From: Spirogloea muscicola
Lineage: Eukaryota > Streptophyta > Zygnematophyceae > Spirogloeales > Spirogloeaceae
DNA: 26,208 nt
Direction of reading: 5' to 3'
NCBI GenBank assembly: GCA_009602725.1
Contig: WELB01000020.1
Location: forward strand, 975,996-1,002,203
The stretch's first letter is position 1; the number at the start of each line of letters is the position of its first letter. A program made the translations under genes and the position numbers. The notes beneath the pieces were generated by a model that saw nothing but the letters and a program-made list of their open reading frames with translations, was not told the DNA's origin and made no database searches. Positions 370 to 26,208 of this stretch are shown in pieces.

Positions 370-2881
370 CATCGTGACCGATGCCGGCCTTCAAGGCACG
401 CTGCCCAGCAACCTTGGGCAGCTGACGTTCCTCAAGACAATGTGAGCCCTCGATTCCATCGCTCCATGCTTGTTCATTCCCATCAACCAGATTGACATTG
501 TGTGTAGGGTCAGGTCTAGCTGAGCCTAGCTAGTTCCAGTCTGACCTTGGTCGTGGCGCCACTCTGCACCGCACCTACTCCACTCGCTTGCCTTCACCGC
601 AGCCACCTGTACAACAACAAGCTCGGCGGCGGCATCCCGTACTCAATCGGCAACATCGTGGGCCTCGACCTTTTGTGAGTGCTCTTCAGACCAACGCGCC
701 CTCTCGTGTATCTCTGGACAGCATTTCCGCTACTTGTGCGAGTGCGCTGATAACAGATCTGCTGCCTTGACTACTGACTGCATTCCTTCAACTGGGCACC
801 CTGCTCCACGTATGAATAGGAACATGGACAACAATACACTCACAGGTGCCCTTCCGTCATCAATGGCCAACCTCACCGATCTGACATTGCTGTGAGTGAG
901 GCCCCCCACCTCCTCCTAAAGTATAGCAATCCCTCAGCATGTGCTTCAGAGTCCATACCACTTTCAGCTTTGCTGGGCCAATGTCAGCACCGCAAGCTCT
1001 TCACAGTCATACCTTTTGTTCGGGGGTGCAATATATGCACAGGGCCTCGGTTTTCATCTCGCTTCGGTTGAGGGCTTACAATGAATATGAAGCTCAAGCT
1101 CTGTTGAAGTCACTATGTTAAGAAGCAGAATATTTATGAGCATTGGAGATTGCCTGCTAAGGCATTGGTCAGTGATCCTAGAATTGAGCTCTCTGAGGCC
1201 CGATGGAATGATTCTCAATTTGTACTGAATGGGTGCTGCTCTGCATCTACCAGCCACCTGGCTTACAACAAGCTGAGCGGTTCGATCCCGTCATGGCTTG
1301 CCTCAATGGAGAAGCTTGTCATCTTGTAAGTGCTGCTCTAAGCCAGGCTCCTGCACTTGTGTCTCACCTGCCGCTTGTCAGGGATTTGGCTGGTGATCTA
1401 GAGGCGTGGAACTGTGCCTGGTCGTCAGCTGTTAACGCCCTGCTCTGGCAGCATTTATGTGAAAGACTCTTTCAAGATTATCTAATTTCGGACTTGATTG
1501 ATGACCACCTCAATGAGATGGTGTTCTCTCTGGTCACATCTCATCAAGTACCAGCTTCGATGCCCCCTGCATGGCTGCAGCATTGTGAACAACAACAACT
1601 TCACGGGCTCTGTGCCGAGTACTGTGAACAAGCTGGCGGCGCTGCAGAAGTTGTGGGTTCCAAGCTGCTGGCTCTCACAGTTGGACGTCTTCTGTTGTGA
1701 TTAGATTTCTCAGCATATACCTCAATTGTGTACCTCTTTGCCTCTCGCTGAAATTGACTCTTATGACCTCCTGCAGTGTGGTAGGGAACAATCAGATATC
1801 GGTTCTCTCGTCCTCCATTGGCAAGCTGGCAAATCTTACTGTCTTGTAAGGCTCCATGCCTGGCCGACATTCGGATTCAAAGTGCAATTTTCAAAGCTCT
1901 TGTATTACCTTGCATACTGATCCCCAGCATTCGTGGATGATCAATGTCAATGGGTAAGACATGTATGACTCACTGCCAAAATCTGCTCAAGCATTTCATG
2001 TCCTGCTCAATCAGGGATGTCTCTGGAAACAAGCTGATTGGGCCATTCCCATCGTACATCCTGTATTTGGCAAATCTCCAGCAACTGTAAGTAGCAAGGC
2101 CACCGCTTGAGTGCTGCATACGTAGGTTGCAACTTGTATTTGAGCTTGGACTTCATATCGGCTCTGCAATGCCGGATTCTTAGATGACATACAGCCAATT
2201 TGCATGTGCAGCAAGCTTCTTCTGGAGACCTGCAGAAATAGATATGCACTGGGCTTATGCACTAATGGTTCGCTTCAAGTTTGCATCAACAGGTTGATGT
2301 CTTCGAACAATTTCAATGGGACTTTGCCATCCAACCTCGGCAGCAGCCTCAAGAATCTGAAGTCGCTGTAGGTCTATCAGACACTTGCTACGAGTTCAAT
2401 ACACACTAGAGATTCATATAGGAGGTTTGGTGTTGTGCTTAAGGTCAGACCTTCACTCTTACAAAGCGGTCTTGAAAGCTGCTACAAAGAGTCACACCAC
2501 AAAGCACTGTGGCTTTGATATACTGGCTTTGAAATCTGCCAAGGTATACTTTCATAGTAGCAATTTGGAGTTGTTAGAGTGACTGCATTCACCAGCTTAC
2601 TGTGAGGTTCTCTTGCAGGTACCTTGACCACAACCTCTTCACCGGAACCTTCCCCACAAGCTTGACCAAACTGTTCAACGCAACGGGGCTGCGCAAGATG
2701 GACGTGTCATTTAACTACCTCAATGGCACGCAGCCCAAGGTGACCGGAGGTGGGGTCTACTTCAATTTCTCACTTGATTGTTTCCTGAACGCCGCCAACC
2801 AGCGCAGCCCCGCTGCTTGCGCCTACTTCTACGCCCACGGCGAACCATTGCCGCCATCGCCGCCGCCGCCTCCGCCGCCAC
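370..2881 (+). other. gene A LRR array, one repeat per exon, ending in a proline-rich linker
   Basis: Eight successive exons each encode one LRR of 23-25 residues, for example HLYNNKLGGGIPYSIGN in 603-674 and HLAYNKLSGSIPSWLAS in 1254-1325. Six are exactly 72 bases (370, 603, 820, 1254, 1581, 2015). That at 1777 is 69 and that at 2293 is 75. The ninth exon (2619-2881) carries a last full LRR (YLDHNLFTGTFPTSL), a second degraded repeat (MDVSFNYLNG), a capping segment with two cysteines (DCFLNAANQRSPAACAY) and a linker PPSPPPPPPP encoded by CCG/CCA codons at about 2848-2880. Each LRR exon begins with the last base of the codon split by the previous intron. Confidence 0.88.
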
Positions 2882-5800
2882 GTGAGTGTCATAGCATAGA
2901 CACTCTTTCCCCGAGTTTGTTGTCAATCAAACACATGAGTTTCAGAGACTCTTTGTGGCTATATTTGTCTCACCATATTCATGGCATTTGCTGTTAAATA
3001 GCAGCAGTACCGCTGAGCCTCAAGTCTGATGAGCTCATGTTGACTGCACTCGACACAGCCCCTTGCACTACGATATACGATTGCTACCCCTGGGCCTACC
3101 AGCAGCCGTACTCGAACGACCCAGATTGTGCAACACTTGGTTGCCTGTAAGTGATGCCTTCCCATTCATATGGGTTGACAGCAGTGCACGGCCCTTTGTC
3201 CAGAACATCTGCTGCATCAAACTTTTGTTGTGCACAAGGGTTAGGCACGAAGTATCTCGATGGAATCTGCAGCTGGTGTTTGAGGACGAAGACCCACAAC
3301 ATCGTCACATGGTCAAAGCTTGTCCGAGTGCGCACTCAGTGGAATGTGTAAGTTTGAATGTGGTGGTCTTGGTTTCTCATTACATCTCAAAGCTGACATT
3401 GGTCTGCTACACCAACTGTGTGCTTGTTACACAGCAACGGAGTGTGCGGCTTCACATATAACCCGCGCGAGATTTATTGCTACAATGCCGGAGCAGATCC
3501 TTATGGCAGCGAGCCGGCCAAGCAGGGCTGCAGCAGACCCGGCTGCAAAGAGTAAGCAACCGCCTCCACCTCTTCCACTTGTGTAACACGAGCTTGCCTT
3601 TCCATTCATCTTCTCGATATTCGCATTTTACGCATCATCTTATGCTCAAAGCGGCATGATTCAATAAAATACTGTGTTAATGATGTTCGAAGTAAGCATG
3701 ACGTTAATGCGACCATGTTCAAGAAGCCTGCTAATTCCAGTGTGAGCTGGCAGTGGCTTGTGCCAGTATCTGCCGGACAAGGACGGGACGCAGTGCCGCA
3801 GGGCCGACCCCAACGCTTGCCACAACAACACCTGCCTGTAAGTGGACTACAGTACTAGCCTGCCATGACCCCGCCAGTCATAGGAGGGACCTCAAGTATG
3901 TCACTTAAGCACATAAACTCAGAACATGACTGCTGCTCATGAGAGCAAAGGTACTGCGTTCCAAGTTCAATCAGGGCTTGCTGTCAATGATGATGCACAT
4001 CAGTGGCCCCTTGGGCAAATTGGGGCAACGAGCCCCAATTTGCCTGGGACCTGGCTTGTAACAACCCCAAATAGCACGTATAACCATAGTAGCTGGAGAC
4101 TAATGTAATACTGGAGAATATGGGGGAAAGTATCACTGAGCGCATCTTACTACCACCAGTATGCAGATCGCAGCTATAATTCCAGCCAAATGCAATCTAC
4201 TTTGGTAGATTACAGCTTGTTAGGAGTGATGTTATTTGCATTGGCTTTGGTTGAAGCAATATGTAGGCTGCTATTTTAATATCTGCTGCCGGCATCATCT
4301 GCGCAGGGGCGGGGCCTGCGTGTCAAAGAATGCCGCTCCTGGCAAGGCCTGCAGTGTGAACGCGAGCTCAGTGAATCCTACCTGGAACACGGCTTGCTAT
4401 CTGGGCAGCTGCAGCAGGTGCACAATCTGACCTCTCTTCAACCATGCACCTGTTGACGCTTCTCGTGTTGTGGATACGAGCAAAACCGTTGATGTTGACA
4501 TTCGACAAGCCATTCAGTCAATCACTAACTTATCCATAGAACCTGCAAGCTGGCCAGAGTCAGGCACCTATTTAGATGCTTTCCTGCCAGACTGGAGTTT
4601 CAGACTGGATCTTCATCATGAGCTGATGTAAACATGGCAACCTGCAGCACTGGGAACTGCACACAGTTCACATTCTCCAGCAGCAGCACCATCTGCCAGA
4701 ATCCTGGCGTTACATACCCGGCCTGCAAGACCAGCCATTGCAGGTGCACAATGGAACTTTCTCAAAGATACACACTTGAAGCACATAAGATTGTTGTGAC
4801 CAAACGCATCTTAGAGCTCCTCTTGGCGGGGCGCTGATCATGTGAAGGTCGTAAATACCAACTCAATAAGCAGGACAACAGCTAGAGCCACTGGTTATCA
4901 GCCTAATTGGTGGAGGACTGTCAGGCCTTACAACAGACAAAAATCTCTGACTTAAGGAAATTTTTACTTGGGTGAGGCAGTGGAGTCGATGGCACCTGTA
5001 AAACAACCCTGTACAACAGCCCCGATGGTACCATCTGCACAGCAGGCTCAAGTGCCCGGGAGTGCCAACAGAAATTCTGCAAGTCCGTGACTCTAACACC
5101 AATTCTCTTAGAAAACGATATATACGCTTTGAAAACAGCATGATCAGCTTGTCAATACCTCGCATGTCTTTTGCCAACTCTGAGCCCTATCTACATCCAA
5201 GCAAGCAGAACAGATTGAATATGCTGGCTTTCCTCTGCCGATTTCCCTCATATTGGTGACTGATGTCTCATGTGCTCATCTATACGGGAAACCCAAGTCA
5301 TTCATAGAACATAACTATAAGAGATGACTGTCCTTTGGAATGTCCAGGAGCGGAGCTTGCACCGGCTTGATGAACAAGACTGACCACACACCATGCCAGA
5401 CCATGGAGACAGACTTTCCCTCCAACCTCCTCGGCCCTGACTACCCATACAGCCATGAGGGGGTACAGTACGGTCAATATGACAGCGAGTGTGTCAGTGG
5501 ACTTGGATGCTAGTAAGTGGATTCTCGAGAGACAACTGATAGTGCATCATGGCAGAGTAAATGGCAAAGTGAATTTTCACATTTGTTGCAGCTGCATTGC
5601 AAGCTAGCATATACCACTTCTGCAAGTGCATGTATTATTCCCTGTCATCTGGTGTCTGCTTTCGGTGGTGACAGCTTTGTCTTCACAGCCTCATGCACGT
5701 TCATAACTCATGTGTTTGTTACATTTTTGCAGCGGTGGCTACTGCGTCGGAGAGAGCTACTATCCCAAGGGCACATTCTGCGGGACACGGTACGAGTGCG

Positions 5801-5988
5801 GGATCATCCAGCTCTTCCAATGCTGCCCGGCCTGCGATGGCCAGGGCGGCTGCACTGTCTCTGGGAGTGATGGCCAGGGTTGCTTGATGTGCAACGGATA
5901 TATAGGCTACTATGATTGCATCGACGACCACACATGCGACTACAATGGTTGCACTTGTTCTGGTGGCTCGTGCTACTACAATCCCTGA
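370..5988 (+). CDS. gene A: LRR / cysteine-module secreted-type protein (5' partial)
   Basis: Spliced model of about 636 visible residues, missing its N terminus. Exons: 370-441, 603-674, 820-891, 1254-1325, 1581-1652, 1777-1845, 2015-2086, 2293-2367, 2619-2881, 3005-3146, 3435-3551, 3754-3837, 4307-4417, 4648-4743, 4981-5082, 5348-5512, 5733-5988 (TGA stop). Every junction is GT-AG, and the reading frame is continuous. All introns are phase 2 except that between 2881 and 3005, which is phase 1. The first nine exons encode plant-type LRRs. The rest encode four-cysteine modules and a conserved Cys-rich C terminus. No kinase or membrane segment is seen, so the product is probably extracellular. 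It is a paralogue of gene B at 19242-26208, in opposite orientation. The function is not known. Recognition of a ligand, adhesion or a wall role are inferences from the domain types. Individual splice sites could be off by a few bases; 3002 is an alternative start for the exon at 3005. Confidence 0.85.
3005..5988 (+). other. gene A cysteine-module array and conserved C-terminal domain
   Basis: Seven exons (3005, 3435, 3754, 4307, 4648, 4981, 5348) each end right after a C-x(2-4)-C pair, with the next codon split in phase 2. Most begin with a G-x-C motif and have a second Cys after a short G-T-like turn, giving about four cysteines per module (C1, C2, C3-x(2-4)-C4). A clear example is 4981-5082: GVDGTC...SPDGTIC...ECQQKFC. 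The last exon (5733-5988, 85 codons with stop) carries CCPACDGQGGC, then GCLMCNG, and ends CTCSGGSCYYNP. Gene B's last exon aligns to it (CCAHCDGAGRC). The spacing loosely recalls disintegrin or ADAM-type Cys-rich segments, but no family could be assigned by eye. Confidence 0.8.
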
Positions 5989-6680
5989 CGCTCAGATCAT
6001 GGCAGAGTGCACATGTCACTGCACGCATTGACTCAGCGGCATGGATTGTGCACAAGCATCTCTAGTAGTGAGCACAGAGCACATTTAGGCACTGCTTATA
6101 GAAAAATACACGTGGCTATTGACTTGCTGCGCACTGTAGATTACAACTGGATTATTCTTTGACAAAGTACGACCTTGAGCTTCAGCTTATGCTTGTATAA
6201 GACAGCAAGAGTCCTGCTTTCAACTGCGCCTCCTTTCTGTGTTGATAAGGCTGCAGTAAAAGTTTATTGCATCGTTGTACAAGTCGACCTGTGAACAAAG
6301 ACAAGCACAAGTGACACGATAGGAACAAGAATCAGTGATAGGCATCATCACCCCCTGATTATGCTCCCAGGCGTATCTGCATGTGATTTTTTTTTCCCCT
6401 CTGCTTCACAACCTCGGCACTGTAAATTCGTACAACTGGCAGATTGTACTATGAGCCCCAAGAATCTATGTCATATCTGCTGAGTATAGTGACATGTCAG
6501 CGCGTCCGGTTGGGTTGGGTGACCGTCTGCCTCAGCCTATTAGGCCGGGGGGGCCTCCCCCTAGAAGGGAGGCCACGGTACATTGGTCTGATTTTTGGTG
6601 CGATCGTGCTGCTCTGAGCGCCCTAGCTATGGCTATGGCTGCCACCCACTAAGAAAGAACACTTCCATGTATTTGGGAAA
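5989..6680 (+). other. 3' UTR and downstream flank of gene A
   Basis: There is no supported coding region here. A TGTAA motif at 6421-6425, about 430 bases past the stop, matches the polyadenylation signal commonly used by chlorophyte algae and is the best candidate for the 3' end of gene A. A T-run lies at 6388-6396. Two overlapping open frames of 70-83 codons on the minus strand are only shadows of the last exon. Confidence 0.45.
6552..6574. repeat. short perfect hairpin GGCCTCCC / GGGAGGCC
   Basis: The 8-base arms at 6552-6559 and 6567-6574 are perfectly complementary around a 7-base loop. A G-run immediately precedes them. It could be a transcription-end structure for gene A or merely GC-rich noise. 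Confidence 0.5.
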
Positions 6681-6683
6681 ACT

Positions 6684-6800
6684 GGAAGGCCAAAGTGGCC
6701 AAGTACCACTGCAAGCACATCTGACGACGTACATTGCCCACTGCAAATTTAACCCGCTCAGTAACCACGGGTCAGCACATAGAGGTCGCTAAAGGATGCC
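6684..6800 (-). mobile_element. retroelement 3' end, copy 1 (heavily 5'-truncated)
   Basis: Bases around 6748-6795 are nearly identical to parts of 7420-7470 and 16420-16470. On the minus strand they read ASFSDLYVLTRGY followed by TGA, the shared C terminus of the element's ORF. The 3' UTR-like portion, at lower coordinates to about 6684, is more diverged but alignable: all three copies share GGAGGGCC or GGAAGGCC, CAAGTAC and GCAAGCACA. Nothing upstream of the last few codons is recognisable, so this copy is severely 5'-truncated. Confidence 0.75.
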
Positions 6801-6889
6801 TGAATATCGGATGGCATACTCCATTGGGAGAGCCACTTCTTTCTATTCCATGCCCTACTGTCACCAACTACAACCAAGGGTGCGGCTCC

Positions 6890-6965
6890 GTGTGCGGCCA
6901 GGCGGAGCCTGTGCTAGTCCGGCCTCTGTGTGCGGCCAGGCGGAGCTTTGTGCTACTCTGGACTG
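6890..6965. repeat. two tandem copies of a 38-base unit
   Basis: Units at 6890-6927 and 6928-6965 both begin GTGTGCGGCCAGGCGGAGC. The second ends with several substitutions. The repeat lies between retroelement copies 1 and 2. No function is evident. Confidence 0.85.
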
Positions 6966-7327
6966 TGTGCGCTACCAGATCAGAGTCTGTCTATGAGCAA
7001 ATCTGCATCTGTAGGCCAAGACGAGGGCGGGCTGCCGGTCCTCCGGAGGAAGGCAAACGTCCAGTGGAGGACTCTGAGTGGAGAAGATAAGGAGCCAAGA
7101 CCGTTGACCACAAGAGACAAGAGCAACATCAGGTGCAGCCAGAGCAGAAAAATCCTATGATCGACATGGCCGATGGAGTGCTATACTCATGTAAAGGTAG
7201 CATGCACGATAAAGCAGAGAGCTGATCTGTCCGCAGAATCCCATATATGCTGGCCATGCCCGCATGAAGGCTACCTTGTCCTGGCTGCCACATGCACGCC
7301 TGCGCCCATCGCGCACGTTTGCTGTCG
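6966..7327. other. spacer between retroelement copies, no gene seen
   Basis: Open frames here are 60-120 codons, overlap on both strands and resemble no recognised protein. The segment is left as unassigned. Confidence 0.4.
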
Positions 7328-8110
7328 GGAGAATGCGTGTGAATTTAGAGATGGAGGGCCATGTGTGGCCAAGTACAGAGGCAAGCACATTGACAAATGT
7401 ACGTCACCTGCTGCTAAGCTGACCCGCTCAGTAACCACGAGTCAGCACATAGAGGTCGCTAATTGATGCCCGAATACCGGACGGCAATCGACAAGCTCTT
7501 GAGCTACCAGCTAAGGCTCGACCAGCTTTCTGATGCAACGCATGAGCCTGAGCTCAGTGCAGACAAGCTGACACTCGACGACGCAAGAATGACAACTATG
7601 CTGCCGGCATGCTCATCTGAGCTGGAAGCATATTCTCACGTAAAGCGCATCCCAAGCTTGCAGTATTCTGCAGTAAGGCGTGGAAGCGAGGGCCCATGCA
7701 GCCAAAGTGTCGATTGCCGCCTTTAGGAGGTGATCGCTGCGGGGGTAGTCAGAGTTGTGTCGGAGCTTTCTCTGCTCAGCACCTCCCACTGCCTGGCCAG
7801 CAGTGTGTGTCGAAGCGGAACTCTTGTATGCCTCCGTCACCACCACATCCACCCAAGGCGCGTGGGCCACCGCCAGGTTTTACACCCACAATGTCCAGGG
7901 TGCGACGGTGATGGCGTCCCTGGGGAATCCGTGGTGATGGGCATCACAGTGCTTACTTCCACAATAGCGCAATAGCCTGCGCCGCGCATCAGGCCCGCCA
8001 GCGTGTCCCGTCGGATGGATGAGGCCGCCTCCACAGGCGGTGCGACTCAGCTGCATCAAAGCCTAGTGATAGAGCTGACTCATGCGTTTGCAAGCTGCCC
8101 ATCCCACAAT
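7328..8110 (-). mobile_element. retroelement C-terminal fragment, copy 2 (frameshifted)
   Basis: Reading the minus strand from about 8105, a Cys/His segment (CDCG, THESALSL) leads to RRDTLAGLMRGAGYCAIVE and VMPITTD. After a frameshift comes WVDVVVTEAYK, then AEQRKLRHNSDYPRSD. Around 7600-7500 follows a basic stretch RRRVSACLH, a stop codon, then AQAHALHQKAGRALAGSS. The C terminus is SDLYVLTRGY and a TGA. The order D-V-V-x-T-E then A-E-x-x-K-L is what the restriction-like endonuclease domain at the C terminus of R2-type non-LTR retrotransposons shows (RH..., PD...DV..., ...K...Y). Stops and frameshifts make it non-functional. The 3' UTR-like tail reaches about 7328 and is shared with copy 3. 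Confidence 0.78.
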
Positions 8111-8599
8111 CACATTTGTCTTAAATTATATTGATCTTTGACGCGAGAAGGAGACGAGCTAAAGTTGCAGATGGCCACAGTGTGCCCTTGCAGATGGATG
8201 GCTACGAGACAAAGGTCTTTCGAGGGTTTGGATACATCTACAGATTCCCTGGGCAAGAATAGGGCCGTGCTCCAGTGTGCTCCAGTGAGGCCTTGAAACA
8301 AGCAAGTGCACCTAAGCATGAACTCTGATGCAAGGCGGTAGTGAGGGATACGGGTGTGAAGCACTTTGGAGTAAGAGCCTATATCCTACTCTGGGTACCA
8401 CCTTGTGTGCCTCGTAGGAGAATGGCGGGTCATTAGCACTCAATCTTTGTTGCTAATTGACGCCGTCTAGCCCCTTTATGCAAACACGCAAGACACACTT
8501 TGTGGTGCGAGATGTAGTTATTCGTATCAACTGCTTGTACTCACTGCAACATTGCGCCGTCCAACAATGGGGCACTAGCCGTGTATGCTGCAGTAAGCA
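8111..8599. other. unassigned intergenic sequence
   Basis: No recognised coding sequence is present. A 10-base direct duplication GTGCTCCAGT lies at about 8269-8288. The open frames of 78-84 codons on either strand show no recognisable motif and no splice-compatible extension. Confidence 0.4.
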
Positions 8600-9175
8600 C
8601 ATAGAGGGCGGTACTAAATGGAATTCAGTACCACGCCAAGTCGGAAGCGACTATCAGGTCCGCGATGCGCATGGATGGAAGAAGCCAAACTAAGCCGTTA
8701 CAATTGTTTAAGCAAAAGCTAGTGCAAAGACTGGGCAGCAAGGAGAATTTAAGAAAGAAGATAAGGAATTGGGAAGAGACTTCGTGGAGAGATCGTGGAA
8801 GATAGCGACAGAAGGTGACCCCTGTGGAGGCTCCCGTTGTCGGGGAAAGTTACTTCTTGTCAGAGAGCGGCCCACTGCACCATAAGTGCCTTGTCCCATC
8901 AAGGTTTGGCCTGCATTGTGCCTCAAGGGCATGAGCTTAAGCTCGCTGCAAACAGTCTGACACATGATGGTGCAAGAACGATAGATGGGCTCCCAGCAGC
9001 CCATGTCAGCCAGAAGTACATACCTCACTTACGTCATGCATTTTCGTAAAACAAATTTACTTGATTAGGGTATAGAAACGAGAAATTATGCAATCAAAGG
9101 TGTCGACTGCGGGTGGCAGGAGATGATCACAGCTGAGGTAGTCGAAGTAGTGCTGTGACTTGCTTCGCTCTGCAG
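8600..9175 (-). mobile_element. retroelement C-terminal fragment, copy 3 (diverged)
   Basis: Two blocks align with the better-kept copies in the same order and orientation. Bases about 9100-9170 match 7705-7770 and 16725-16790 (the GGAGATGATC...GTAGTC region). Bases about 8920-9035 match 7540-7660 and 16540-16660. On the minus strand the second block reads SFLHHHVSDCLQRA, equivalent to LSFLRRRVSACLH of copy 2. The lower-coordinate part around 8595-8625 keeps only AGCACATAGAGG-like similarity, so the left boundary is uncertain. The reading frame is destroyed. Confidence 0.6.
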
Positions 9176-11244
9176 CTACTGCATGGCCAGGAATGCAGGT
9201 GTTGACTCTGGACAAAATATCCTTTGACCCTTTGACCTTAAAGATGCAGGGCGCCTTCTGAAAGTGCAGTGTGAGAACGCTCGGGTTGCCAAGCCCAAGC
9301 GCGAAATGCGCAGCGAAGGAGGATGTGAGACCAGCCAGATGTGTGGCTTTGTCAATAAGTCAAACACAACGAACAGGTGAGAACGGTGCGAATCAACAAA
9401 CAAAGATCTCGAAGGTGGGCAAGGAGCTCAATCAGGCACTCTCTCACATCTTTTTTGCCGGCCCGGCTGTTTGCCCAAATACTGGCCTGGGCGTCTAAAC
9501 CCGACGGACAGTGCACTCTATCCCTTATGGCCTTTCAAAGCAGGTCGCATCTAAACGGTGTGTTTAGAACATGGGGGCATTGCTTTGCTTCTATTGATGT
9601 CAAGCACCATGTCAGCTCTTTGCATCGGTCATGTAATGAACCAGCCGTCTGGTCCACCTTGCCCCAGGCAAGGTCTTGTATTGTTGCACCCTTGGATAGC
9701 GAGAGCATCCGAGACTTAACACATGGCTCTGTCGGCATTACATGATCGGCCATTTATGACAAGTGGCCCGCCAGGTGGCGGGCTGGCTTGCCGGGCAAGG
9801 GCCCGCCGGGCGGTGGGCCCCGCCCGTTCGAAATACCCCTCGCCAGGATCCACCCGTTCAAGTAGGACCTCTGCTCCACGCTTGTAGGCCCCTCCGAACC
9901 TTTGTCAATTCATTTTGGGCTGGCATTTCGCAGCCCTTTCCCCCATTAGGAGCACCACTTTTCCTTTGGCCTGCCGCAAGGCAGGCCTTGGGGCGACCTG
10001 CTCACACCCCTGGAAGGGGGGTGGCACGGGGAAGCACGAGGAGCCTTGGGGGCTGAGGCTCGACAAGCAATTCGAGCCAGTGAAGCTCAGGAGCAATCTT
10101 GCCGCTGCTCGCCGCCGCAGCCGCCGCCGCACTCTGCCGTGGGGCCTGCTGCGCCGGCCTGCGCCCAGGAGGTGGAGTCGCCGCCGGAGGGCGGCGCCAC
10201 AGGGCCTATCTTTCGCTCCGCGACGCGCTAGTGCTTCACCGTGTAGTGGGTTGGCTTCTAGACCCCCTACAGCCAAACTCAATAAGTATCTCTCTCTCTA
10301 ACTGCATGTGTAGGGCGAGGTTCCTTACAGGTCAGCCTTGCTAAGACAGCCACCACCAACACTTAGGAACGCACAGGCAGGTCGATGGTATGGGAAGCGC
10401 CACTTGAGACCCGGCGGGCCGCGCAGGACAAGCTTCTGGCGAAAGCGATAGCACCGCAACTCCACGCCGCTACGACCCCTGGGGCCGCTGCCGGTCAAGT
10501 GCTTTCTTCAGCTTAGTAGTTTTCCAAGTCCTTTGCAGCGCTCGCAGGCCCTGGCCCTTTACAGCGTGCTGGGCGCGCGCCCTAAGCCAGGCCACCGGCT
10601 TCCGATGCGGTGCTCCGGCTCCCCCGACTCTTTCCATCTCCCTGCAGCGCTCTTTGGTTCACGCGTGCATCTGCGTGCAGGCATTGCCCCGGCTGCCGCC
10701 GTCGGCTGCTACTGGCGCGGGTGCCGATACTCTATTGATATTGGTATGGGTACGGGAACTGCTCTCAGGCTGCTAGGACTCCTGGCTTACGTCTGCTGTG
10801 AAAATATACCGAGCGGCCACTTGTGATTCTCAAATTCCTCCGTGCTGTCCTAAACTTTTCTGGACTCATCAATACTCTTCGGGCTGGCCCTTTGCAACCC
10901 CCGCCTTCGGAGGAGCTACTTCTTCGGAGTAAGTCTGTCCGTAGTTGGTCTGTCCACACGTGAGCACACTTGTGTGCTAACTTGTGGGTACTAAAGCCTT
11001 ACCGCAACCCTGCTTTCGCCCTGGACGGAAAGCCCTTTTAGCCTAGGGTTTGCTATGTGTAGCCCATCAATAACAACACATAAGACTAAGAGGGAGGCCA
11101 AGCTGAGCTACTCTGCACAGTCCCCGTGAATGACAAACCCTTAAGCATAGATTCTGACGTAAGTCCTGAGCACCTTGCGGCTCTTTCCGTCTCCCGGCCA
11201 GGGTCCCCCGTCCGCGATGCCCGCCGGTCCGCCGCCGCCGCAGC
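9176..11244. other. unassigned 2 kb intergenic region, GC-rich in parts
   Basis: No supported gene was found. Bases 9762-9840 form a GC-rich stretch built of GGCCCGCC/GGCGGGC words that can pair with each other. Bases 10090-10200 are GCC/GCG triplet-rich, which opens long frames in several phases at once; such frames are not evidence of coding. A 43-codon frame at 10385-10516 has coding-like composition but no homology that could be recognised and no supporting splice context. Confidence 0.4.
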
Positions 11245-12541: not shown

Positions 12542-13504
12542 ATGGCCGCCCTCCTCGCCGCCGTGCTGGTCCTCGCCCTCGCCGCCTCCGCCGCCGCCAA
12601 CTCACCCTGCACGCCCAACACCACCTTCGTCTTCGGTGGCGCCACGTCCGTCCAGCAGCTGGAAAATCAAGTCATTGCCTCCTACAGCTCGGCCATCGGC
12701 TGCTACGCTAACGTCGGGTGCGCCGTCACCCGCCATGCCACCTCACTGCGCAGCACACGCGTGGGGCGCGAAGTCCTGCTCCGCTTTTGACACGAGATGC
12801 TGGCAGTCCCCCTCTGATGCCACGGCCACGGCCCTTTCTGTCTGCGCCGTAGTAGAGCCGGAACTTGATCAGCCATTCAGCCACTTCATAACACTGCGCT
12901 TGGCTCCTGGTCTTGCAGCTCCGGCGCCGGTTACAACGGCTTCAAGGCCCGCACGTACCTGGTTGCTGCCTCTGATGCTGCCATGACCTCGGCCCAGGAG
13001 AGCAACCTCGGCTTCGTCAGGTACACCGTGCCCCAGGGCCTGCAGTCCTACTCCCTACTCTACAACGGCACCACGCAGCTGACTCTGTCTTGCCAGAACC
13101 TTGCCGACCTGTACTCCGGCTTCTCCACCTCCATCGGAGCTGGTGCCATCACCATCCCGGTCGCTCGCTCCGATTCCTCGGGCACAAGCTTCGTCTTCTC
13201 GTCCTACCTCAACCTCTGCACTGCCGGGGGTATCCGCCCTTGGCCCGCCACCAAGGTTGGCGAGGTTGTGGCCTGGGGCTCACCCAACCTGGTGACTCAG
13301 AGTGGCTCTCAAGCCCTTGCCGCGTACGTGTTCTCCCACCCTGCTGCCGTTGGCTACCTGGGGACTCCTGTGGCCATCACCTTCGTCACTGGCAATATCC
13401 GCATCGCGCTGACCAACAATAAGGCTGGTCAGAACTACAAGGGCAGCTCCTGCTCCGTGACTGGCGCTATCCCAGTCTCCCTGCCCGCGGCTGACGCGAC
13501 ATGA
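12542..13504 (+). CDS. secreted PstS-like phosphate-binding protein, interrupted by in-frame TGA
   Basis: The product belongs to the type-2 periplasmic-binding fold, PstS class, which binds phosphate. Exon 1 is 12542-12717 and exon 2 is 12919-13504. The intron (GTGCGC...TTGCAG) is phase 2 and joins YANVG to SGAGYNGF. The ATG has a good context (CCGCCATGG) and opens a classic signal peptide (LLAAVLVLALAASAAA). PstS hallmarks are in order: GGATS near the N terminus, GSGAGYNGFKA, AASDAAM with the ligand Asp, and ARSDSSGTSFVF matching the Arg/Ser-Gly-Thr phosphate loop. A GYLG segment follows later. The frame stops at 13502-13504 after 253 residues, although homology continues in frame to 13843. 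Either it is a nonsense pseudogene or a truncated protein, or the base is a sequencing error. A phase-0 72-base intron 13457-13528 could skip the stop but would delete conserved sequence. GC content is visibly higher than in the LRR genes. Confidence 0.8.
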
Positions 13505-15852: not shown

Positions 15853-16029
15853 GGGCGCCGTGTCTGCCTAGCCTTTGGCTTCGTCATGAACACCTGTATG
15901 CATCTGGCTTGCAGTTTACAGCCGATTCTTTACAATCAGCAGCCGCATTCTTCTAGTAAAGGGGCGATGGCTGTTCAGAAAGGAACGAAAATATCTTGAA
16001 GGGCCAAGGAAATTGCTAAAGCACACAGC
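15853..16029. other. spacer between two convergent retroelement ends
   Basis: The 3' ends of copy 4 (plus) and copy 5 (minus) point at each other across this 180-base stretch. No gene is seen. Confidence 0.4.
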
Positions 16030-16260: not shown

Positions 16261-16330
16261 AGATGCCAGCACGAAAGGAACAAAAAAGAGAGGAACGAAC
16301 AAGGTTTAGAAGAAGCAAGCGCTTCCAAGG

Positions 16331-17273: not shown

Positions 17274-17424
17274 CTAAGGGCCGATTAACACTGGGACGGA
17301 CGGACGCGGCCGAGGGGTACGTGTCGCGCGGTATGTGGAACGCCCGGAATTAAAGCCCTTGCCAAGTCGAGGCCAAGTCGAGGCCAATCTGCGTCCGTCC
17401 GTCCAAGTGTAAGTCGGTCCTTAG
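17274..17424. mobile_element. MITE-like element with about 34-base terminal inverted repeats
   Basis: The left arm 17274-17307 (CTAAGGGCCGATTAACACTG then GGACGGACGGACGC) and the reverse complement of 17391-17424 (CTAAGGACCGACTTACACTT then the same 14 bases) match at 30 of 34 positions, with the inner 14 perfect. The 83-base centre contains a 12-base tandem repeat (GCCAAGTCGAGG). No transposase is encoded. No clear target-site duplication was found flanking the arms. The alternative is a long imperfect hairpin that arose by chance in a repetitive segment. Confidence 0.5.
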
Positions 17425-17849
17425 ACACCGTCCCGCTTCCACGACCTCAGCTCGCCGTGACTCGGAAACGAGGCACCAAGGCTGGAGGTAACCACATTGG
17501 CGCCATTGACACGGCTCCCCTGACAGCCGTCGACACTCAGGGCAGGAGAACTCAGCAGCATCATCTCATTGCCAGCACGAGAAGTGGAGTAGGCAACTAC
17601 GCCAAGGCAGCTTGGTCTGAGCCCGGCACGCCTCCCACGCAACATTGGCAGCGATGAGTTGTCGCCTTTGCAAGTGCACCAACACATCACACCATGAGCA
17701 CTTGAACGCCAGAGGGTCGTCATCATTGGGAAGAGGCTCCATCTGAGAGGCTTGCTCATGTGTTGTCGTCGTGCATTCGTCCACGTCCTGGCCAAGGTGC
17801 AGTTCTGTGCTCGCTGCAGCGTTGTGGGTTACCACGGGCTTTACAGAGG
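17425..17849. other. unassigned spacer
   Basis: The minus strand carries a stretch reading DPLAFKCSWCDVLVHLQRRQ in an 89-codon frame (17566-17835) with a CxxC pair. It resembles a zinc-binding fragment, but no family could be assigned and no splice context supports it. Confidence 0.3.
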
Positions 17850-18260
17850 GCAGCCGTCTGCTCGCTTGATCGCGGTGGCATTGTTGGGGCCGTTAAGGTG
17901 GAGCAGCTTGGTGATAGCTAAACCAGGACGTTGGTGGAGATACTCTCTGTGCTGGCTTGGCCAATTTGCTCTACGGGGCTGTTGGGGAGCAGTTCGCAGC
18001 TCGACCTGCTGCCGTGGGCATCCTGTGGCAGCCGGGGAGCAGTCACCTGCTCGCTCTGCCAAAGGAATCCTCTTCCTCCACGGGACTGCCAAAGAAGCCG
18101 TCTTCTGCTCGCTTAGCTGCCGTTGGCATCCTCCTGGCGAGCTGGAAGCAGTAGTCTGCTCGTTGTGCCGAGGCAACTCTGGCGCTTTCTCGAAGCAGTG
18201 CTCTGCTTTTCTGGTGCACCTAAATGTTCCAAGCCATCCTGGGCACATGCCTCTGCTCGC
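17850..18260. repeat. degenerate minisatellite with a unit of about 47-57 bases
   Basis: The word TCTGCTCGCT or a near variant recurs at about 17856, 18048, 18105, 18154, 18203 and 18250, each followed by a GCTGCC..GGCATCCT-like block and a GAGCAG or GAAGCAG block. The 190-codon plus-strand frame (17752-18324) and the 135-codon minus-strand frame across it show the same period in translation. They are thought to be by-products of the repeat. Confidence 0.6.
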
Positions 18261-19241
18261 TGGGCTGCCACGATCTCCCGAGCCCCCGCTATTGGGCGTC
18301 AGCCGCTGGTATGCGTACTTCTAAGCCGCTACTGAGAATAGCACACGATGTCATGTGGGGCCATCTAAACCCAGCACGATGTCGAAGAGGTGCGCTGGGC
18401 ACAACCCAGGCTGTTACGTATTACAGGAGATCCTTCAGCTGACCTTTTATATAGTCCGTGAGAGCTGTCAGCTTGACGGTGTTCCTGATATTGCTGGACC
18501 CTTGCACCCTCGTATGAGCTTGCGAGGCGCCCGCTGAAGGAATCTCAAAGCTCCGACTGCTAAAAGTGACGGTGGCACCTCTAATCATGTTATATTAATG
18601 AAGGCATCCATTCGGGCAGCCACCGTGAAGATGTAACCGTGGCCAAACTGTGATGTCCGAGGCGCGTTCACGAGAGAAGGGCCCCCTGCGCCCCGTCGCC
18701 GTAGCCAGAAACGGATTGCCCTATTTGACCATGTAAACGCTTGGGTGCCCAAGCATTAGCGGTCAGAAGCGGGACAGTCCACTTGGTTCGTTCTTCAGTG
18801 TCAGAAGCGTTCCACCCTTGAAACGAACCTGACACTAGGTCACCAGCACAGTCGCTCGCACCTTGCATCGGTAGGCGTCATTTGCACGTGTGCCGGCACA
18901 CATGTATGGCAACTTCGTTTCCTCTATGACGTATCGAAGCACAACCTTGAATGACCGTTAGAGGTGTGGTGTGTGAATGACTCCCTACTTATTTGTAAGA
19001 CTGATCTGCGGCACCGTGTGATTGCCTTGTGCACTCAAAAACGGTAAGATCCTGACCTGAAAGCAAGTGCTGGCTGTTTAATTGAGCCCGGGGCTCCTGA
19101 TCGCTGGAAATAGCTTGCCTTCTGATCATTTATAGTGACCGAAGTAACAATTCAGGCTACAAAACAATGTCGTGGCATGCCCTTAAGCACGGCCTTTTAA
19201 AAAAGATTGCTCGGCAAGTGTGATATTCGCACTTGTGTTGC
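18261..19241. other. intergenic region including the probable 3' UTR of gene B
   Basis: No coding sequence is supported. The part next to 19242 should contain the 3' UTR of the minus-strand gene B. No convincing minus-strand TGTAA was found close to its stop. Confidence 0.4.
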
Positions 19242-22200
19242 TCACAGGTAGTTAAACACACAAGAGGTCCTTGCACAGCTGCAACCACTGGGCTCACACC
19301 CACTCGTCCCTTTACCACATGAGGGGCCCGTGCACTTGGTGCAACTCTGCCCATCTCTGATATCCTCGTCGCACCTTCCTGCGCCATCACAGTGGGCGCA
19401 GCACTCGTCGGTCTCGCATGTCCCAGTGATATAAGGCATGTAGTACTGCCCAGGAGTTGGCAAGCACACGGTGCCCGCTGGCTTGTTGCTGGTGACGTTG
19501 GTACATTCTCCAGCGCTGCCCAGACAAGACATGACATATTGGAGAGGTCATCAGATTGCAGGGAGGCTGCGGAGCACAATGGCGAGCCTGTGGTACTTTT
19601 CAATGCGCGGCAGGTGGTGTAGCTAGTGCTCACAAGCCAATTACTGATAGAAAGCGAGTAAAAGTGGAACACTGCATGATATCACGCAATGAAAATGCCA
19701 TGCAGTTTTCTGTGAAGTATGGACCCCAACTACATGTGCTGACGGATGCCCACCTGCACGAGCTGACCTGGCAACGGACGTCAAGTGCATTGGGGTTGTA
19801 CTCGTCACAGATGGTGCTATTGGGGTACCGTTTTGCAGTCTGACACTGGCCCAGGCTGCAAGAAGCAACAAAGCCTTGGTCCAGAATGAGCACTATTCGA
19901 ACATTAAAGCTCATCAACGTCTAGTAGCTGAAACAAGCTCTGTAAATGTCACAGGAATCCCCTGTGCTGTTGCTCAGATGTCAAACCTGCAAGCCTGGTC
20001 TTGGCAGCGCTTTCCAGTTTGTGGGCCGCAAGCTGTGCCGTTGGCAGCCGTGTAGTACTTGCTGTAGTCACACTGGCCAGCACCACTGCATCCAGGTGGC
20101 CACATCACTCGAGCAGCGAGTACGTGAGATGTTGGCAATGCCTGATTCTGAAGAGCTTGCAGTTGACTCTCACGAAAGCGTGATCTACAAGCCACAGGCT
20201 AATGCTACCCTTGAGGCATACATCACATTCTCGTATCAGAGTAGGCAGACCACCACTGCATTAGTCTTCATAGTAGTCTGATTAGCAGATCTCCATCAAG
20301 TTGCCCGACTCTCAGTGAAAGATAGATTGACTGTGTTATTAAAGATGGAGTGGCCAGACATGATACTGACACTTCGTCCTCATTGTGGTGCACAAATTGA
20401 AGGCATATACTACTGCTACCTTCCTTAGATTGGCTTCACAAGTCTCTCTTGGCCTTACTTGCATCTATATATGAAGTTGCACTGATCGCCATTATCACAC
20501 GGGGTTGTGCTCGGGGCTGGATCTGTGTTGGAACATGTACGGGTACTGTCAATGTGAACAAGGAAGAGGCTATGAGTGCAGAGTACGTCAGGCACACCAG
20601 AACATTTAAATAAGCAGCAGAAAGAGTGAAAAGCCAGACTTCAGTAATGAGGTCAAAAACATACCCTCACATGCAAGAATTGCTTGGCCAGTCATTGTGG
20701 GGAGAATTGGGTTGCTTACTCTGGATCACACGAGTATAGTAAGCAAGGATCTGGAGCACTGTAGTAGCCATACGGGTCCGGCTGTGCATTGGGGTTGCAG
20801 CTTGTCCTGCCATTGTACGTTGCAAGGCAAGAGCCCTTCCTGCAGATGTACCTATGCTTGCTGTTTAGTACATACTCGCAAAAATTGCCCCGTAGTAGAC
20901 CCTTGTAATGCTCTGGATGACTATTAGACATTTCTGAGTTTCGGCTGTCAAGAATGTGATAGGCCATTGACCCTACCAAGCTTGCGCAAACTAACTTGAA
21001 TGAAAACATGACATTACAAGCAACATGTGATTCATGTCTACATGGCTAGCTGATCACCTTCTGGGCTAATTTTACAACTGTGACGCTTTCTTGATGGATG
21101 TATTAGAGCGTGAAAGGCCAGGGCTTACTTACAAGCATGTGGTGTTGGCACACTCGTAATCAGTGAGAGCTAGGACGAATTTCGTTCCATCAGTGTAATT
21201 CTTGTGCAAGTTGCAGAAGCCGTTACCACTAGTCAACAGCAAGTGGTTTAGGCTTTAGGTTTGGGGGTTTCAGTACTGCCTTCACAAGCTCCTGCTATTA
21301 GTCAATGCGAATCGGCAAGAGCCTACTTTACTACTTATGGGTGCTGAGCGTCAAGATACTTTTTGAACAGGCATAGTGCATCACTAAAGAAAAGCAATAG
21401 TACTATATATGTATAAGGTTGCTCAAACCTAGCGCAAAGCTTAAAAACATGCAGGTGACATATGAACAAGGCTCTATATGCTTACTTGCAAAAGGTGCTG
21501 AAGCACGTCAGGCCACTATGTGATGACTGGCAATCTTTGGAGGTAGTACGGAACGATCTCAAAATGCATGATCCATTGCTGTCAAAAAGGTATGTATGGC
21601 GTGAGTAAGCAGCTCTAGAAACTCTGAAAAGGCTTTCAATGCTGCAATGTAGTACGAGTTTTGTTCAAAATTTGGGTTCCTTGTAAGCAGGGACTGTATC
21701 TTTGAGCTCCACCAAATGCAGTATCTGCCAAATTGATCATGCAAGTGTGCGACATGACTTGCAACTGCTCTCACTGCATTCCCTACCGACTCTTTGGTAG
21801 CGGGCAATGTTCCTAGAGAATGTGGTCAGACAATTATGCACTGAGATTATTGCCATCTGACAGGTCTGAGCCCTGGATCTGTATCCTGGAAGCCAATACT
21901 TTCACCTGTGGACTAGTGCACCCAATAGCGTCAGCTTGTTACCTTGCACAGCGGGCGTCAAAGCAGTTGCCATCCCACCCAAGTTGGAGCTGGGCAATAT
22001 CAGTGCATGTGTGATTGATGACTGATGTGCGCACATTCTGGAATGTACAGATCCCAGCCCTGTGCACAGGCGAATGGAGACAGGCATGTTGTCAAGGCTG
22101 TCACTAATGTAAGAAGTAAGTGTTAAGAAGTAAGTGTCATTTTGTCATCTGTAGAAGTCAAGGTATTGGTACTCAAGGAACCGAAGCAGATCTACAGTTT

Positions 22201-22793
22201 CCTAGTGCTCCTGCAGACATGCCACTAGCAATTGAATGTCAAGCGTGATAATTTGGCAATAACCAAGATGTCCTTCTTTCCACGTCTATCTTGAATTATC
22301 AAACAATTTGGTTGATGCAAATTTGGTTGGACTGAAGAGCACTGACAGGCAGGTGACTTTGAGCATTGGTACGATTGACCTCCAGTTGAGGTGTGACAAG
22401 ATGTTCCGTCAGCATATTGGTCCAGATAGCACCGTGCACTTGTCTCACTGCAGGAAAACACACAAGAGTAACCTCCAGACATAGCTTAACAAGAGCTTCC
22501 ATCTTCATGTTAGGCCACATAATACAACATAAGATAAGAAGATAAGATGAGAAAACATGACATAGCATGCACTTGCGGCACTGAAAACTCCATATTAGGC
22601 AAGCCTCCATCTTGAATACTATCGGGGTAAAACAAGCAACCAAGCAGAGTGCCTATTGCAGGACATATCAAGGAGAGTGTGAGCCTGTTACTAGTCAAGC
22701 TCGTGGCTTACTTGCAAAGTGCAAGATTGCAATCGTGAGCATACTCCACACCCAGATTGTCGCAGGAAGCTACTTCCGCGGAAGGAATGCAAG
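19242..22793 (-). other. gene B cysteine-module array and conserved C-terminal domain
   Basis: Ten module exons precede the terminal exon. The regular form is x-G-x-C ... C ... C-x(4)-C with the next codon split in phase 2, for example 21578-21486 (NGSC ... DC ... CFSTFC) and 20085-19987 (GAGQC ... NGTAC ... CQDQAC). Variants: 21812-21759 has only the last Cys pair (ECSESSC), 21228-21133 lacks the second Cys, and 20944-20720 is a longer exon with six Cys and a duplicated look. The terminal exon (19515-19242) carries CCAHCDGAGRC, then GQSCTKCTG and CSCARTSCVFNYL before the stop. It aligns with gene A's last exon. Confidence 0.8.
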
Positions 22794-25700
22794 CTGCATG
22801 AGCACACAAATAGAAATTGGAGACAAGCTTTTATCTTTGGAGAGTTGAGGATTAGTACTCACCCATGTTACATTATTTGCTCCAGCAAGCATATGATGAC
22901 TTTCGACAGACTCAAAGCACTTCAGAGATAATTTGGGCTCACTAAGTGGCAGCTACTTTACACAAATGCTTACAGGAAGAAGCAAAAGGTAATGCAGTTG
23001 GCAATTACGTGGGGCCAATTGTGCTGCGCATATAGAGGTCGGCCTCTGGTTTGCTTGGAGTTTGAAGCAGTTGTTGGAGATGTTGACTCTTACACCCGAG
23101 ATGGACACGGATGCGACTGGGCCAGTCATGTAATTCCCAGATACATCAACATAATACAATTGCGTCTTGTTGAGAAGTGGATATAAGCTTGGAGGGAAGC
23201 CACCTTGGAAGTTGTTCTTGGACACGTCACTGCCGACAGAGCATGGAAACTATTACAAGATAGTCCCTTAACCAAATTAGTACAAGTATCATAGTTGGTC
23301 AAGCGCTGTCCAGCAAACATGCACATGGCAATCTCCTGCCTTCTGTTTTGAATGCCGAGCAAAGCAGAACCACTTACAGTTTCCTTAGCTTCTTGGAATC
23401 TCCGGAATAAGCATAAACTATGCCATGAAAGCTATTCCCAGCCAGATTGCTGCACATCGACGACAGGACCAAAGCCTCTTCAAGACAGCTCGATTTGGGA
23501 AGCAGCTGACAGGTGGGGTCAAGATTGAACACGGGCTGTGCAGTAGATGTGGGTCATGCGACAGTTGTGGACTTACGTGCCAGACCTAAGGGAAGTGCAT
23601 CAGAATAAAGTCTGGCATCACTTGACAATGAGGTCCTCAATTAGTATCTGGATCCACGCTGATTGAAGTTCCTAAGTCATTTGATGGCAAAGACAACGCT
23701 ATCAAGTTTTTGGGGCAGGGCTCACATGATCTGGATGGTTCCACTCTCACTTAGGCTGATAGGAAAGAATCCAGTGAGGTTGTTGTAGGAAAAATCCCTG
23801 TGCGCAACAAACAAATCACAGTCATATCCTGCCTCACATATCAACGATAGAGCAGAGTAGTTGCTCATTATTGCAAGCTCTATGGCCACATTTTGACGGG
23901 GTGTGCAGCAGAGTAGTTGCTCATCGTTGCAAGCTCTGTGGCCACATTTCAATGAGGTTGGCCACAAGGTAACAACGACGGGCCTCGCACATAAGCGATT
24001 GCAAGGTCGGGCATGTAATAAGCTGATGAGCGATAGAAGAAGGGGATCTCTCCACTGAGCTTGTTGTGTGCCAATTGACTGCCAAACAAGGCAACTCGTT
24101 GTGAGACGTCTTGCAGGAAGATCTCGCCAGCCAGGTTCATGAGTGTATTCCGTCAGTATGAATGTCATGCAAGTATATGCAATAAGTATCTGCCAACCAC
24201 ACAAGAGAGGCCAAGTAGATGATACAATGTGGAAGGTGTGGTTCTCTACAGCTGGCAAGCCCAGGCTTTCCTTTTTCAGGTTCTAAGGTGCAGAGCTATG
24301 GTGCTTTACCACTTACATCTTCTGAAGCCTAGACATGCCCTCCATGTTGGATGGTATTGTGCCTGTGAAGCCATTGTTGTCCATGATGCTGGATGAGAGA
24401 CCAAGTACAGCTTTGAAGTGAGCAATGATACACAGGCTTTCTGTTAAGTTGCCTCGAATTTGCAGTAAGAGAGGTCTCATCTCTGCCAACTCAATCATAG
24501 AACCTTTACAAAGTGGTTTTTCGTTTGAGGAAAGGCAGACTGCTTCAGACCGGCAGTCATTGCCATGAGGCTCGAGAAAGGTTGCTTTGACAGAGAGAAC
24601 TGACAAGATGACAAGGTTGTTGAGGTTCGTGATGGTCGTTGGTATCGCTCCCGTCAGATTGTTGCAACAAAGATGGCTGCACCAGTGGTGTGCAAGTTTG
24701 AATCAGGTCAGCAAATTCAGAGGTGGATATCAGATAAAATACCTCGAAGCCCACATAAGTGATTGTAACTAGCTGAGAAAGGTCCAACTTGCAATATGGG
24801 CTGCGAGTGCCAGTCTGAGTTTCCTGTGGGTGACGTGTTGAGGGGTTTGAAAATATTCAAGCCTTATAGAGACTTGGGTCTTTTGTCACCAAAAGCACTG
24901 AACGCGGAATCTTTTCATGCTGCGCAGCAGTTCTGATACTAGTCGATTGTCAACCACTCTACCTATTCATCTTCTGAGAACTCACAGCAGGCTCAATTTC
25001 GCCAGCTGCCCGATGGAGCTCGGGATGCTCCCAGTCAGAAAGTTGTGATCCAGGTTCCTGCTTGCACTAGTGTCCATCAGCTTATGACGAAATCCTATCC
25101 ACATTCGAGCAAGTGCACATGCCTGCAAAGAGACTGTAGTGGAGAGTTGCGACGTCCACCAACAACAAGGTAATTGTCAAATAGAGTACTGACAGGAGGT
25201 CTAGCTCCGCAAGTTTTCCAATGGTGGACGGGATTGATCCTGTTAGTCGATTGCCATAGAGGTGCCTGAGACATTATCACAGATTTTGTGAGTGGGTCTT
25301 TCTCACAAAGTGTCACAGTCAGCATGAGAGAATTCTGCACATCACAGCGACCAGCTTGTGGTGATTAGCTGCCACTTGGGGTAGCCCATGATTGACTGGA
25401 GAGCTTACAATCGCGTTAGCCTTGCCAGTCTGCCGATTGAGGGCGTGATGGTGCCATTAAGGTCGGCATTCACCACCACTCTGGGACAGGGCCAATCGAC
25501 ACTGGTGTCACTTTCAACGTATTGATTGCACTGACCGCACTCATGCCTTGGTATCACCCAACTCAGAAGGGCAGACAGAGGGCCAGTGCCAGTTACCGGT
25601 GCCCAAGCAGTGAAGACTCTGCGACAGCGCAAGTCTGCACAGACTTACTGCTAAACAACAACGTGTGATGACTGGAGCAATATAAAGGTGCTCGTATCTT

Positions 25701-26208
25701 GGCTTTGTTGCCTCTTACTAACACTGAGGAAGGTGTGCAGGAAGGAGCAATCGAGTGCGCAGCCAAGGTGATGGTGGAGGCACTCACAGCGAGCTGACTC
25801 GGCTGGTGTTGTCGCACTGGATGCCGTACCAGGAGCACTTGGCGCCGGCGGTTGTGCAGCCGGCGCAGGGGTTGGGCCCCACCCAGGTGGACAATATGGC
25901 AGGACTTCGCACCGCAGACTTGAAGGACTGCAGCGCTGCCACTGCGTGACGATTCTCCAAGAGTCAGAGGCAACTCCGACTCGCGGCCTGCACTCGGGCG
26001 GCAGTAGCCTGGAGAAGGACGGGCTCACAGTCGGGGTGCGTGGCGAGGAGCTGGCGTCCGGCGTGGCGCTCTGCGGCGGCGAAGTCCGCCGCCGCTGACA
26101 AGAGGACGGGCACGGCGGCGGAGTCAGCCCGGCGGCGGCGACTTGGCCGCGGCAACGCCGGCGCGGCGGCGGGAGGGCCGCTGACCTGCGCCGAGGAGAG
26201 CCGCGGCG
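19242..26208 (-). CDS. gene B: LRR / cysteine-module secreted-type protein (5' end just outside)
   Basis: Spliced minus-strand model of about 799 residues, missing only the start of the signal peptide. Exons in transcript order: 26208-26186, 26094-26029, 25941-25788, 25480-25409, 25265-25194, 25057-24986, 24676-24605, 24388-24317, 24078-23980, 23797-23726, 23449-23378, 23229-23009, 22793-22712, 22447-22343, 22059-21943, 21812-21759, 21578-21486, 21228-21133, 20944-20720, 20545-20459, 20085-19987, 19855-19754, 19515-19242. All junctions are GT-AG and frame-continuous. They are phase 2 from the LRRNT exon on, except a phase-1 junction after 23009, as at the matching place in gene A. Order of parts: AAALLGA-type signal end, LRRNT, nine LRR exons, ten cysteine modules, conserved C terminus. 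It lacks the polyproline linker of gene A. No kinase or membrane anchor is seen. The function is unknown; a secreted or wall-bound recognition or adhesion protein is an inference. The donor at 23980 and the acceptor at 20944 are the least certain. Confidence 0.85.
23009..25480 (-). other. gene B LRR array, one repeat per exon
   Basis: There are nine LRR exons, as in gene A. Seven are exactly 72 bases and encode one repeat each, for example HLYGNRLTGSIPSTIGKL (25265-25194) and NLDHNFLTGSIPSSIGQL (25057-24986). Exon 24078-23980 is longer and irregular (QLAHNKLSGEIPFFYRSSAY), with several possible phase-2 donors. The last exon (23229-23009) matches gene A's last LRR exon in design. It has a full LRR, a second degraded repeat (VDVSGNYMTG) and a two-Cys cap (NCFKLQANQRPTSICAAQ). 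It ends LAPR instead of a proline run. Confidence 0.85.
23851..23957. repeat. 56-base tandem duplication inside a gene B intron
   Basis: AGCAGAGTAGTTGCTCAT begins copies at 23851 and 23907. Each continues with TTGCAAGCTCT.TGGCCACATTT. The duplication lies wholly within the intron between exons 24078-23980 and 23797-23726. Confidence 0.88.
25788..26208 (-). other. gene B N-terminal region: signal-peptide end and LRRNT cap
   Basis: The edge exon (26186-26208) reads AAALLGA before a GTCAGC donor, typical of the end of a signal peptide. Exon 26094-26029 continues AADFAAAERHAGRQLLATHP. Its junction to 25941 creates DLAALQSFKSAV, the usual 'D..AL..FK' opening of plant LRRNT caps. The same exon then has STWVGPNPCAGC and CSWYGIQCDN, which match the W-x-G-x-x-P-C ... 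C-x-W-x-G-V-x-C cap signature, and it ends RVSSL. Reading straight through the two introns would meet in-frame stops, which supports the splice model. Confidence 0.75.

Follow-up and report, generated by a model that had tools for sequence, protein, structure and literature searches.

The window, by which we mean the whole analysed stretch of 26,208 nucleotides, corresponds to C20:975996-1002203 in the Spirogloea muscicola assembly (153 Mb, 471 contigs). It holds two predicted genes arranged tail to tail, gene A (+, 370-5988) and gene B (-, 25927-19242), and each combines a head of LRR exons with a tail of Cys exons. A run of N adjoins the window at both ends; immediately 3' of the N run, positions 1-111 consist of 48 A followed by (AC)n. 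Between the two genes, the open stretch at 12920-13501 (+) matches PBP_like_2 (PF12849, E 1.1e-6). Exon ends were assigned to AG/GT sites with a script and manually and were compared with paralogs, and every exon model in Table 1 is a prediction. A small gene finder, for which the clear exons served as training set, also returned false short exons (e.g. 938-982 and 3273-3347), which were removed by hand.

Table 1. Predicted exons of genes A and B in the window, with the phases of the flanking introns.
Gene	Exon	Strand	Position	Length (nt)	Phase	Remark
A	LRR1	+	370-441	72	2-2	AG/GT of LRR1-8 matched in C455, C274
A	LRR2	+	603-674	72	2-2	AG/GT matched in C455, C274
A	LRR3	+	820-891	72	2-2	AG/GT matched in C455, C274
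A	LRR4	+	1254-1325	72	2-2	AG/GT matched in C455, C274
A	LRR5	+	1581-1652	72	2-2	
A	LRR6	+	1777-1845	69	2-2	
A	LRR7	+	2015-2086	72	2-2	
A	LRR8	+	2293-2367	75	2-2	
A	CAP	+	2619-2881		2-1	Final LRRs, C-terminal cap, Pro-rich hinge
A	C1	+	3008-3146		1-2	Start ambiguous, tandem AG sites
A	C2	+	3435-3551		2-2	
A	C3	+	3754-3837		2-2	
A	C4	+	4307-4417		2-2	
A	C5	+	4648-4743		2-2	
A	C6	+	4981-5082		2-2	
A	C7	+	5348-5512		2-2	
A	C8 (last)	+	5733-5988		2 to stop	
B	LRRNT	-	25788-25927		out-phase 2	3' end placed, 5' end provisional
B	LRR1	-	25480-25409	72	2-2	
B	LRR2	-	25265-25194	72	2-2	
B	LRR3	-	25057-24986	72	2-2	
B	LRR4	-	24676-24605	72	2-2	
B	LRR5	-	24388-24317	72	2-2	
B	LRR6 remnant	-	23991-24078			LRR start with acceptor present; phase-2 donors weak; end provisional
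B	LRR7	-	23797-23726	72	2-2	
B	LRR8	-	23449-23378	72	2-2	
B	CAP	-	23009-23229		2-1	Phase shared with gene A; Pro-rich hinge absent
B	C1	-	22712-22793		1-2	
B	C2	-	22447-22343		2-2	Donor score low, -2.2
B	C3	-	22059-21943		2-2	
B	C4	-	21578-21486		2-2	
B	C5	-	21228-21133		2-2	
B	C6	-	20839-20720		2-2	
B	C7	-	20545-20459		2-2	
B	C8	-	20085-19987		2-2	Donor score low, -2.7
B	C9	-	19855-19754		2-2	
B	C10 (last)	-	19242-19515		2 to stop	

Protein identity and related genes

Both products match the Pfam family LRR_1 (E 1.8e-20 for A, 1.7e-19 for B) as well as LRR_8, and a PDB sequence comparison of the A head gave the GSO1 and FLS2 ectodomains as its best solved relatives. Judged by these matches, the heads of A and B are of the plant LRR type. 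The gene B match to LRRNT_2 has an E value of 0.005 and 17.5 bits, which is under the cut-off of 20.7. Both genes were read through their Cys exons to the stop codon, and at E up to 1 the Pfam matches comprised LRR families, with LRRNT_2 in B only, and no kinase; at the same threshold, no ROC-COR domain was matched in A or B as visible in the window. Neither tail was matched by a Pfam family at E up to 1, and the tail of A has no PDB sequence match at E up to 10. Matches of B to NCBIfam models (bacterial LRR effectors and others) are far under their cut-offs and were treated as LRR cross-matches. A signal-peptide-like start is seen at 89374 in the A-like gene of C274, and from this start and the lack of a kinase match in A and B we infer that the products of the family are probably secreted.

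LRR similarity also matched PDB chain 6qxp, which we take to be a plant LRR extensin. Plant LRR extensins have a tail of extensin repeats. Gene A resembles them in that its LRR head is followed by a Pro-rich stretch, whereas the Cys-module tail is different and gene B has no Pro stretch.

The LRRNT exon of B has 19 other matches in the genome, none of them farther than about 111 kb from a contig end (on five of the contigs, being shorter than 222 kb, any position would qualify), and the last exon of A has at least 15 further matches. A link between the LRRNT matches and chromosome ends was considered and rejected as weak (p 0.015, a conservative value from the farthest match on each of 11 contigs); contig ends need not be telomeres. 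TTTAGGG is the plant-type telomere unit; 615 overlapping matches to four units were counted in the assembly, and among the matches listed no exact four-unit repeat lies on C20. The placement near contig ends may reflect a subtelomeric position or assembly breaks. A tail-to-tail pair of an A-like gene with a B- or D-like gene occurs at three places: the window itself (370-5988 (+) and 19242-25927 (-)), C274:90043-95995 (+) with about 98.4-103.8 kb (-), and C20:1084.7-1090 kb (+) with 1091165-1095841 (-). This suggests that the gene pair was duplicated as a unit.

Exon boundaries and intron phases

According to the initial annotation, nearly every exon after the LRRNT exon is symmetric in both genes. 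This was confirmed on the predicted exons. In gene A, 14 of the 17 exons in the window (LRR1-8 and C2-C7) are phase 2-2 and 15 of the 16 introns are in phase 2; in gene B, 15 of the 19 exons after LRRNT are clearly 2-2 and LRR6 is uncertain. The exons that are not 2-2 are the same in both genes, namely CAP, C1 and the last exon. The LRRNT exon as a starting point is seen in B only; in A the corresponding region is a run of N, for which reason our own statement that gene A has no LRRNT exon was also dropped. The LRR exons are mostly 72 nt long, as had been described (6 of 8 in A and 7 of 8 in B). The shared end claimed for the Cys exons stands in part: 12 of the 16 non-last ones stop exactly 2 nt past their last Cys and four stop at 5, 5, 5 and 8 nt, with phase 2 kept. 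Missing from the annotation was the CAP-C1 intron between the LRR and Cys halves. Its phase is 1 in genes A, B and D (and, by the gene finder, in C455), which makes CAP and C1 symmetric only when taken together.

All 17 exons of gene A have counterparts in the paralogs C455 and C274, with dN/dS between 0.15 and 0.33. Aligned to A, C455 has AG in 16 of the 17 acceptor places and GT in 15 of the 16 donor places, and C274 has 16 of 17 and 16 of 16, respectively. The exceptions in C455 are the C7 donor, which reads TT, and the C8 start, which is misaligned with 16 nt missing and has AG at the true start. In C274 the C1 acceptor is unplaced, with gaps in the alignment, and C2 is aligned in part.

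A wider scan of stretches of this genome located LRR cores in any frame and took the best nearby splice sites with no phase assumed. It returned 75 cores, and both splice scores exceeded 2 in 59 of these, among which 57 were phase (2,2) and 55 exactly 72 nt long; when the cut-off was removed, 70 of the 75 cores were (2,2), although the splice profiles, trained on window exons, may slightly favour phase 2. With random phases about 1 in 9 would be expected to be (2,2), an expectation to be read with the homology of the LRR exons in mind, as they are not independent draws. A scan with the 4-Cys motif gave 105 hits, and the (2,2) share was 15/19 at a cut-off of 3, 23/39 at 1.5, 30/55 at 0 and 44/84 with no cut-off, this motif also matching last exons and background. 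The architecture of one module per exon is thus real on the predicted exons.

Part of this layout is already published. According to PMC3050792, rice LRR-kinases have 72-nt exons of one LRR each, in which a phase-2 intron splits the first Leu of xxLxLxx, and exon shuffling among these LRRs was inferred. The split codon in gene A encodes I, L or F at the same place; unlike the rice genes, A and B have no kinase match, a Cys-module tail and a fixed LRR order. The brown-algal ROCO genes, which are LRR-ROC-COR GTPases, have 72-bp phase-2 LRR exons (PMC11378527). For Tetrahymena LRR genes, PMC6564038 describes arrays of 90-bp exons with an extreme phase-2 bias and a highly variable number, the youngest being pericentromeric and subtelomeric. 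The phase-2 bias is alike in our family, but most of its exons measure 72 bp and, in the genes read, LRR number does not vary. As far as the consulted parts of the literature go, the matches listed include no description of an LRR head joined to a Cys tail with one exon per module. The phase-2 72-bp LRR exons are known from rice and brown algae, and the one exon per uncharacterised 4-Cys module is a new variant.

LRR order, Cys-module number and damaged exons

The initial annotation proposed that the symmetric exons serve exon shuffling, with fast copy-number change or isoforms as the outcome. A reading of this kind, in which active shuffling quickly changes the LRR or Cys number or yields many isoforms, can be compared with the order of the modules. 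In A, B and D, LRR1-8 pair by position, the damaged LRR6 of B being counted, and the orderings that score at least as high as the observed one (itself included) number only 2 of 40320 for A-B, 1 for A-D and 1 for B-D. The best single matches among the three genes are less tidy at the weak LRR6-8. A second test covered LRR1-5 of A, B and 15 of the 19 B-like loci; the other four (L037, L038, L039 and L041) were excluded because the scan recovered fewer than five of their exons or not all of the first four. The nearest relative in another gene was the exon at the same position for 80 of the 81 exons, A-LRR4 being the exception, and the mean score was 75.5 for the same position compared with 32.6 for the other exons within the gene. 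The B-like loci have diverged from one another by about 1 silent change per site, and so the LRR order is old.

Exon number gave the same result. No variation of LRR number or order was seen between paralogs, either in A, B and D (LRR1-8) or in the 15 collinear loci of the 19 B-like ones (LRR1-5). More than five LRR exons were seen in none of the 19 B-like loci in the examined stretches, where the scan accepted an exon only if it was phase 2-2, measured 69, 72 or 75 nt and showed the LRR pattern, so that odd-sized extra exons would escape it. The DNA of A and B contains no recent exon duplication of at least 30 nt, and in A only four LRR exons are alike, at 61-76%. Fast copy-number change of the LRR exons is therefore unsupported, the eight positions standing in fixed order in A, B and D. 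Pooled over pairs, the dN/dS of LRR1-5 is 0.19 at concave sites, 0.08 at scaffold sites and 0.44 at the others; at dS of about 1 such pooling could mask single selected sites in the concave class. For the brown-algal ROCOs, by contrast, shuffling of the LRR exons and splice variants were reported, along with a concave side under positive selection (PMC11378527, citing Zambounis 2012). The LRR half of the present family looks frozen in exon order, and shuffling is unsupported there.

The Cys half is different, and here a difference by whole modules between subfamilies is supported. Tails were read through in A, C455, C274, C20b, B, D and E only. The number of Cys exons is 8 in A, C455 and C274, 10 in B and 7 in D and E; it varies between the subfamilies, as active shuffling would have it, and is equal within them, which speaks against that reading. 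A shared order between subfamilies was not demonstrable, since 300 (A-B), 748 (E-B) and 309 (E-A) of 2000 permutations did as well, and the modules are short and diverged, so signal loss could account for the absent common order. Inside the subfamilies the order persists: L024 follows B in C6, C7, C8, C9 and C10 at 38-53% identity (with a weak C5-like match thereafter, E 0.06), and eight A-like loci have C7 followed by C8, and in four of these a C4-like piece comes first. Tail turnover is thus old or slow, and the modules of the Cys half have perhaps been shuffled over long times. The loci L014-L019, L021 and L023 (C81, C27, C24 and C236) form another subfamily, whose 3' end carries A-like C4 to C8 modules. 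At L014, two C8-like last exons lie 0.8 kb apart (C81:64413 and C81:65246), the second with a good acceptor and frameshifted.

Some exons are damaged. In LRR6 of B the in-phase donors are weak (the best is GTTACC, 0.7) and the better GT sites are out of phase (GTGCGA 2.0 and GTGGCC 3.1). The intron after it contains a 56-nt tandem duplication, 84% identical, at 23851-23962. Without LRR6, gene B reads open for 679 residues to the stop. In gene D (C20:1084500 onward, +), C5 has one base fewer than in E and a stop soon after, and the gene without C5 is open to the end, 510 residues counted from LRR1. The claim that an exon can be lost without breaking the frame therefore holds in prediction for both genes, and in-frame exon loss is plausible in B and D from the reading frames. 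It should be considered that most exons are symmetric, so damage is expected to fall in symmetric ones. In C455, C8 is not read in its normal frame when C7 is left out, but an upstream GTCAGC donor keeps the frame open; the lost C7 donor, at first taken for a break, may therefore leave the frame intact.

Origin and use of the symmetric exons

We consider it probable that a joint account holds for the family, built on what is seen on the predicted exons: their boundaries and phases, the collinearity of the head, the tail counts and the selection. It describes a probably secreted family in which an LRR head of the plant type is followed by 4-Cys modules in tandem. Both halves would have grown long ago through duplication of a phase-2 exon, which would be why there is one phase-2 exon per module, and they would have met once, at the phase-1 intron still common to A, B and D. 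Since then the head would have kept its eight repeats and its cap in the same order, with purifying selection acting on the concave face as well, and the Cys tail would have changed its module number from one subfamily to another. The dN/dS of 0.26 (head) and 0.43 (tail) between A and C20b agrees with purifying selection, as do the ratios given below for A-C455, A-C274 and D-E. New diversity would come mainly from whole-gene duplication, with which the further last-exon and LRRNT matches agree, and the symmetric exons would now act mainly as a buffer, in that one exon can be lost and the rest still be read.

Another explanation is that phase 2 was merely inherited from founder exons and that neither shuffling nor skipping mattered afterwards. 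Homologous introns simply retain their phase, the head is conserved, and the damage to LRR6 of B and C5 of D needs no special cause where most exons are symmetric. The subfamilies, however, differ in the tail by whole exons, and B and D are open to the stop without the damaged exon; we consider this explanation somewhat unlikely.

About as unlikely is that some copies are decaying pseudogenes and the exon losses are a part of that decay, which would be compatible with the joint account. The degraded C20b, which contains one stop and, as aligned, several boundaries lacking AG or GT, fits it, as do the losses at C7 and C8 of C455. The dN/dS between D and E is 0.25 in LRR1-5 and 0.64 in the tail without C5, and the latter may reflect decay of D. 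Against decay, the ratios are 0.15 and 0.23 for A-C455 and 0.17 and 0.33 for A-C274 (head and tail, respectively), and the frame of C455 is open through its upstream donor. That phase symmetry is a damage buffer through which an old shuffling layout now shortens the proteins module by module, through in-frame loss by exon death and skipping as at LRR6 of B and C5 of D, mainly in the Cys tail and with the head protected, is in our view unlikely. Active exon shuffling, for all the symmetric exons throughout, the differing tail counts, the second last-exon copy at C81 and the brown-algal parallel, is very unlikely in view of the fixed LRR order, the lack of recent exon duplication in A and B and the equal tail numbers within subfamilies.

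A layout that permits shuffling is often equated with evidence of shuffling, and here the two are separable: the permissive layout spans both halves of the protein, and in the genes read the module number differs only in the Cys half. The family also provides a 4-Cys module that is uncharacterised, and its genes are a natural system for testing symmetric exons as a source of robustness to exon damage.
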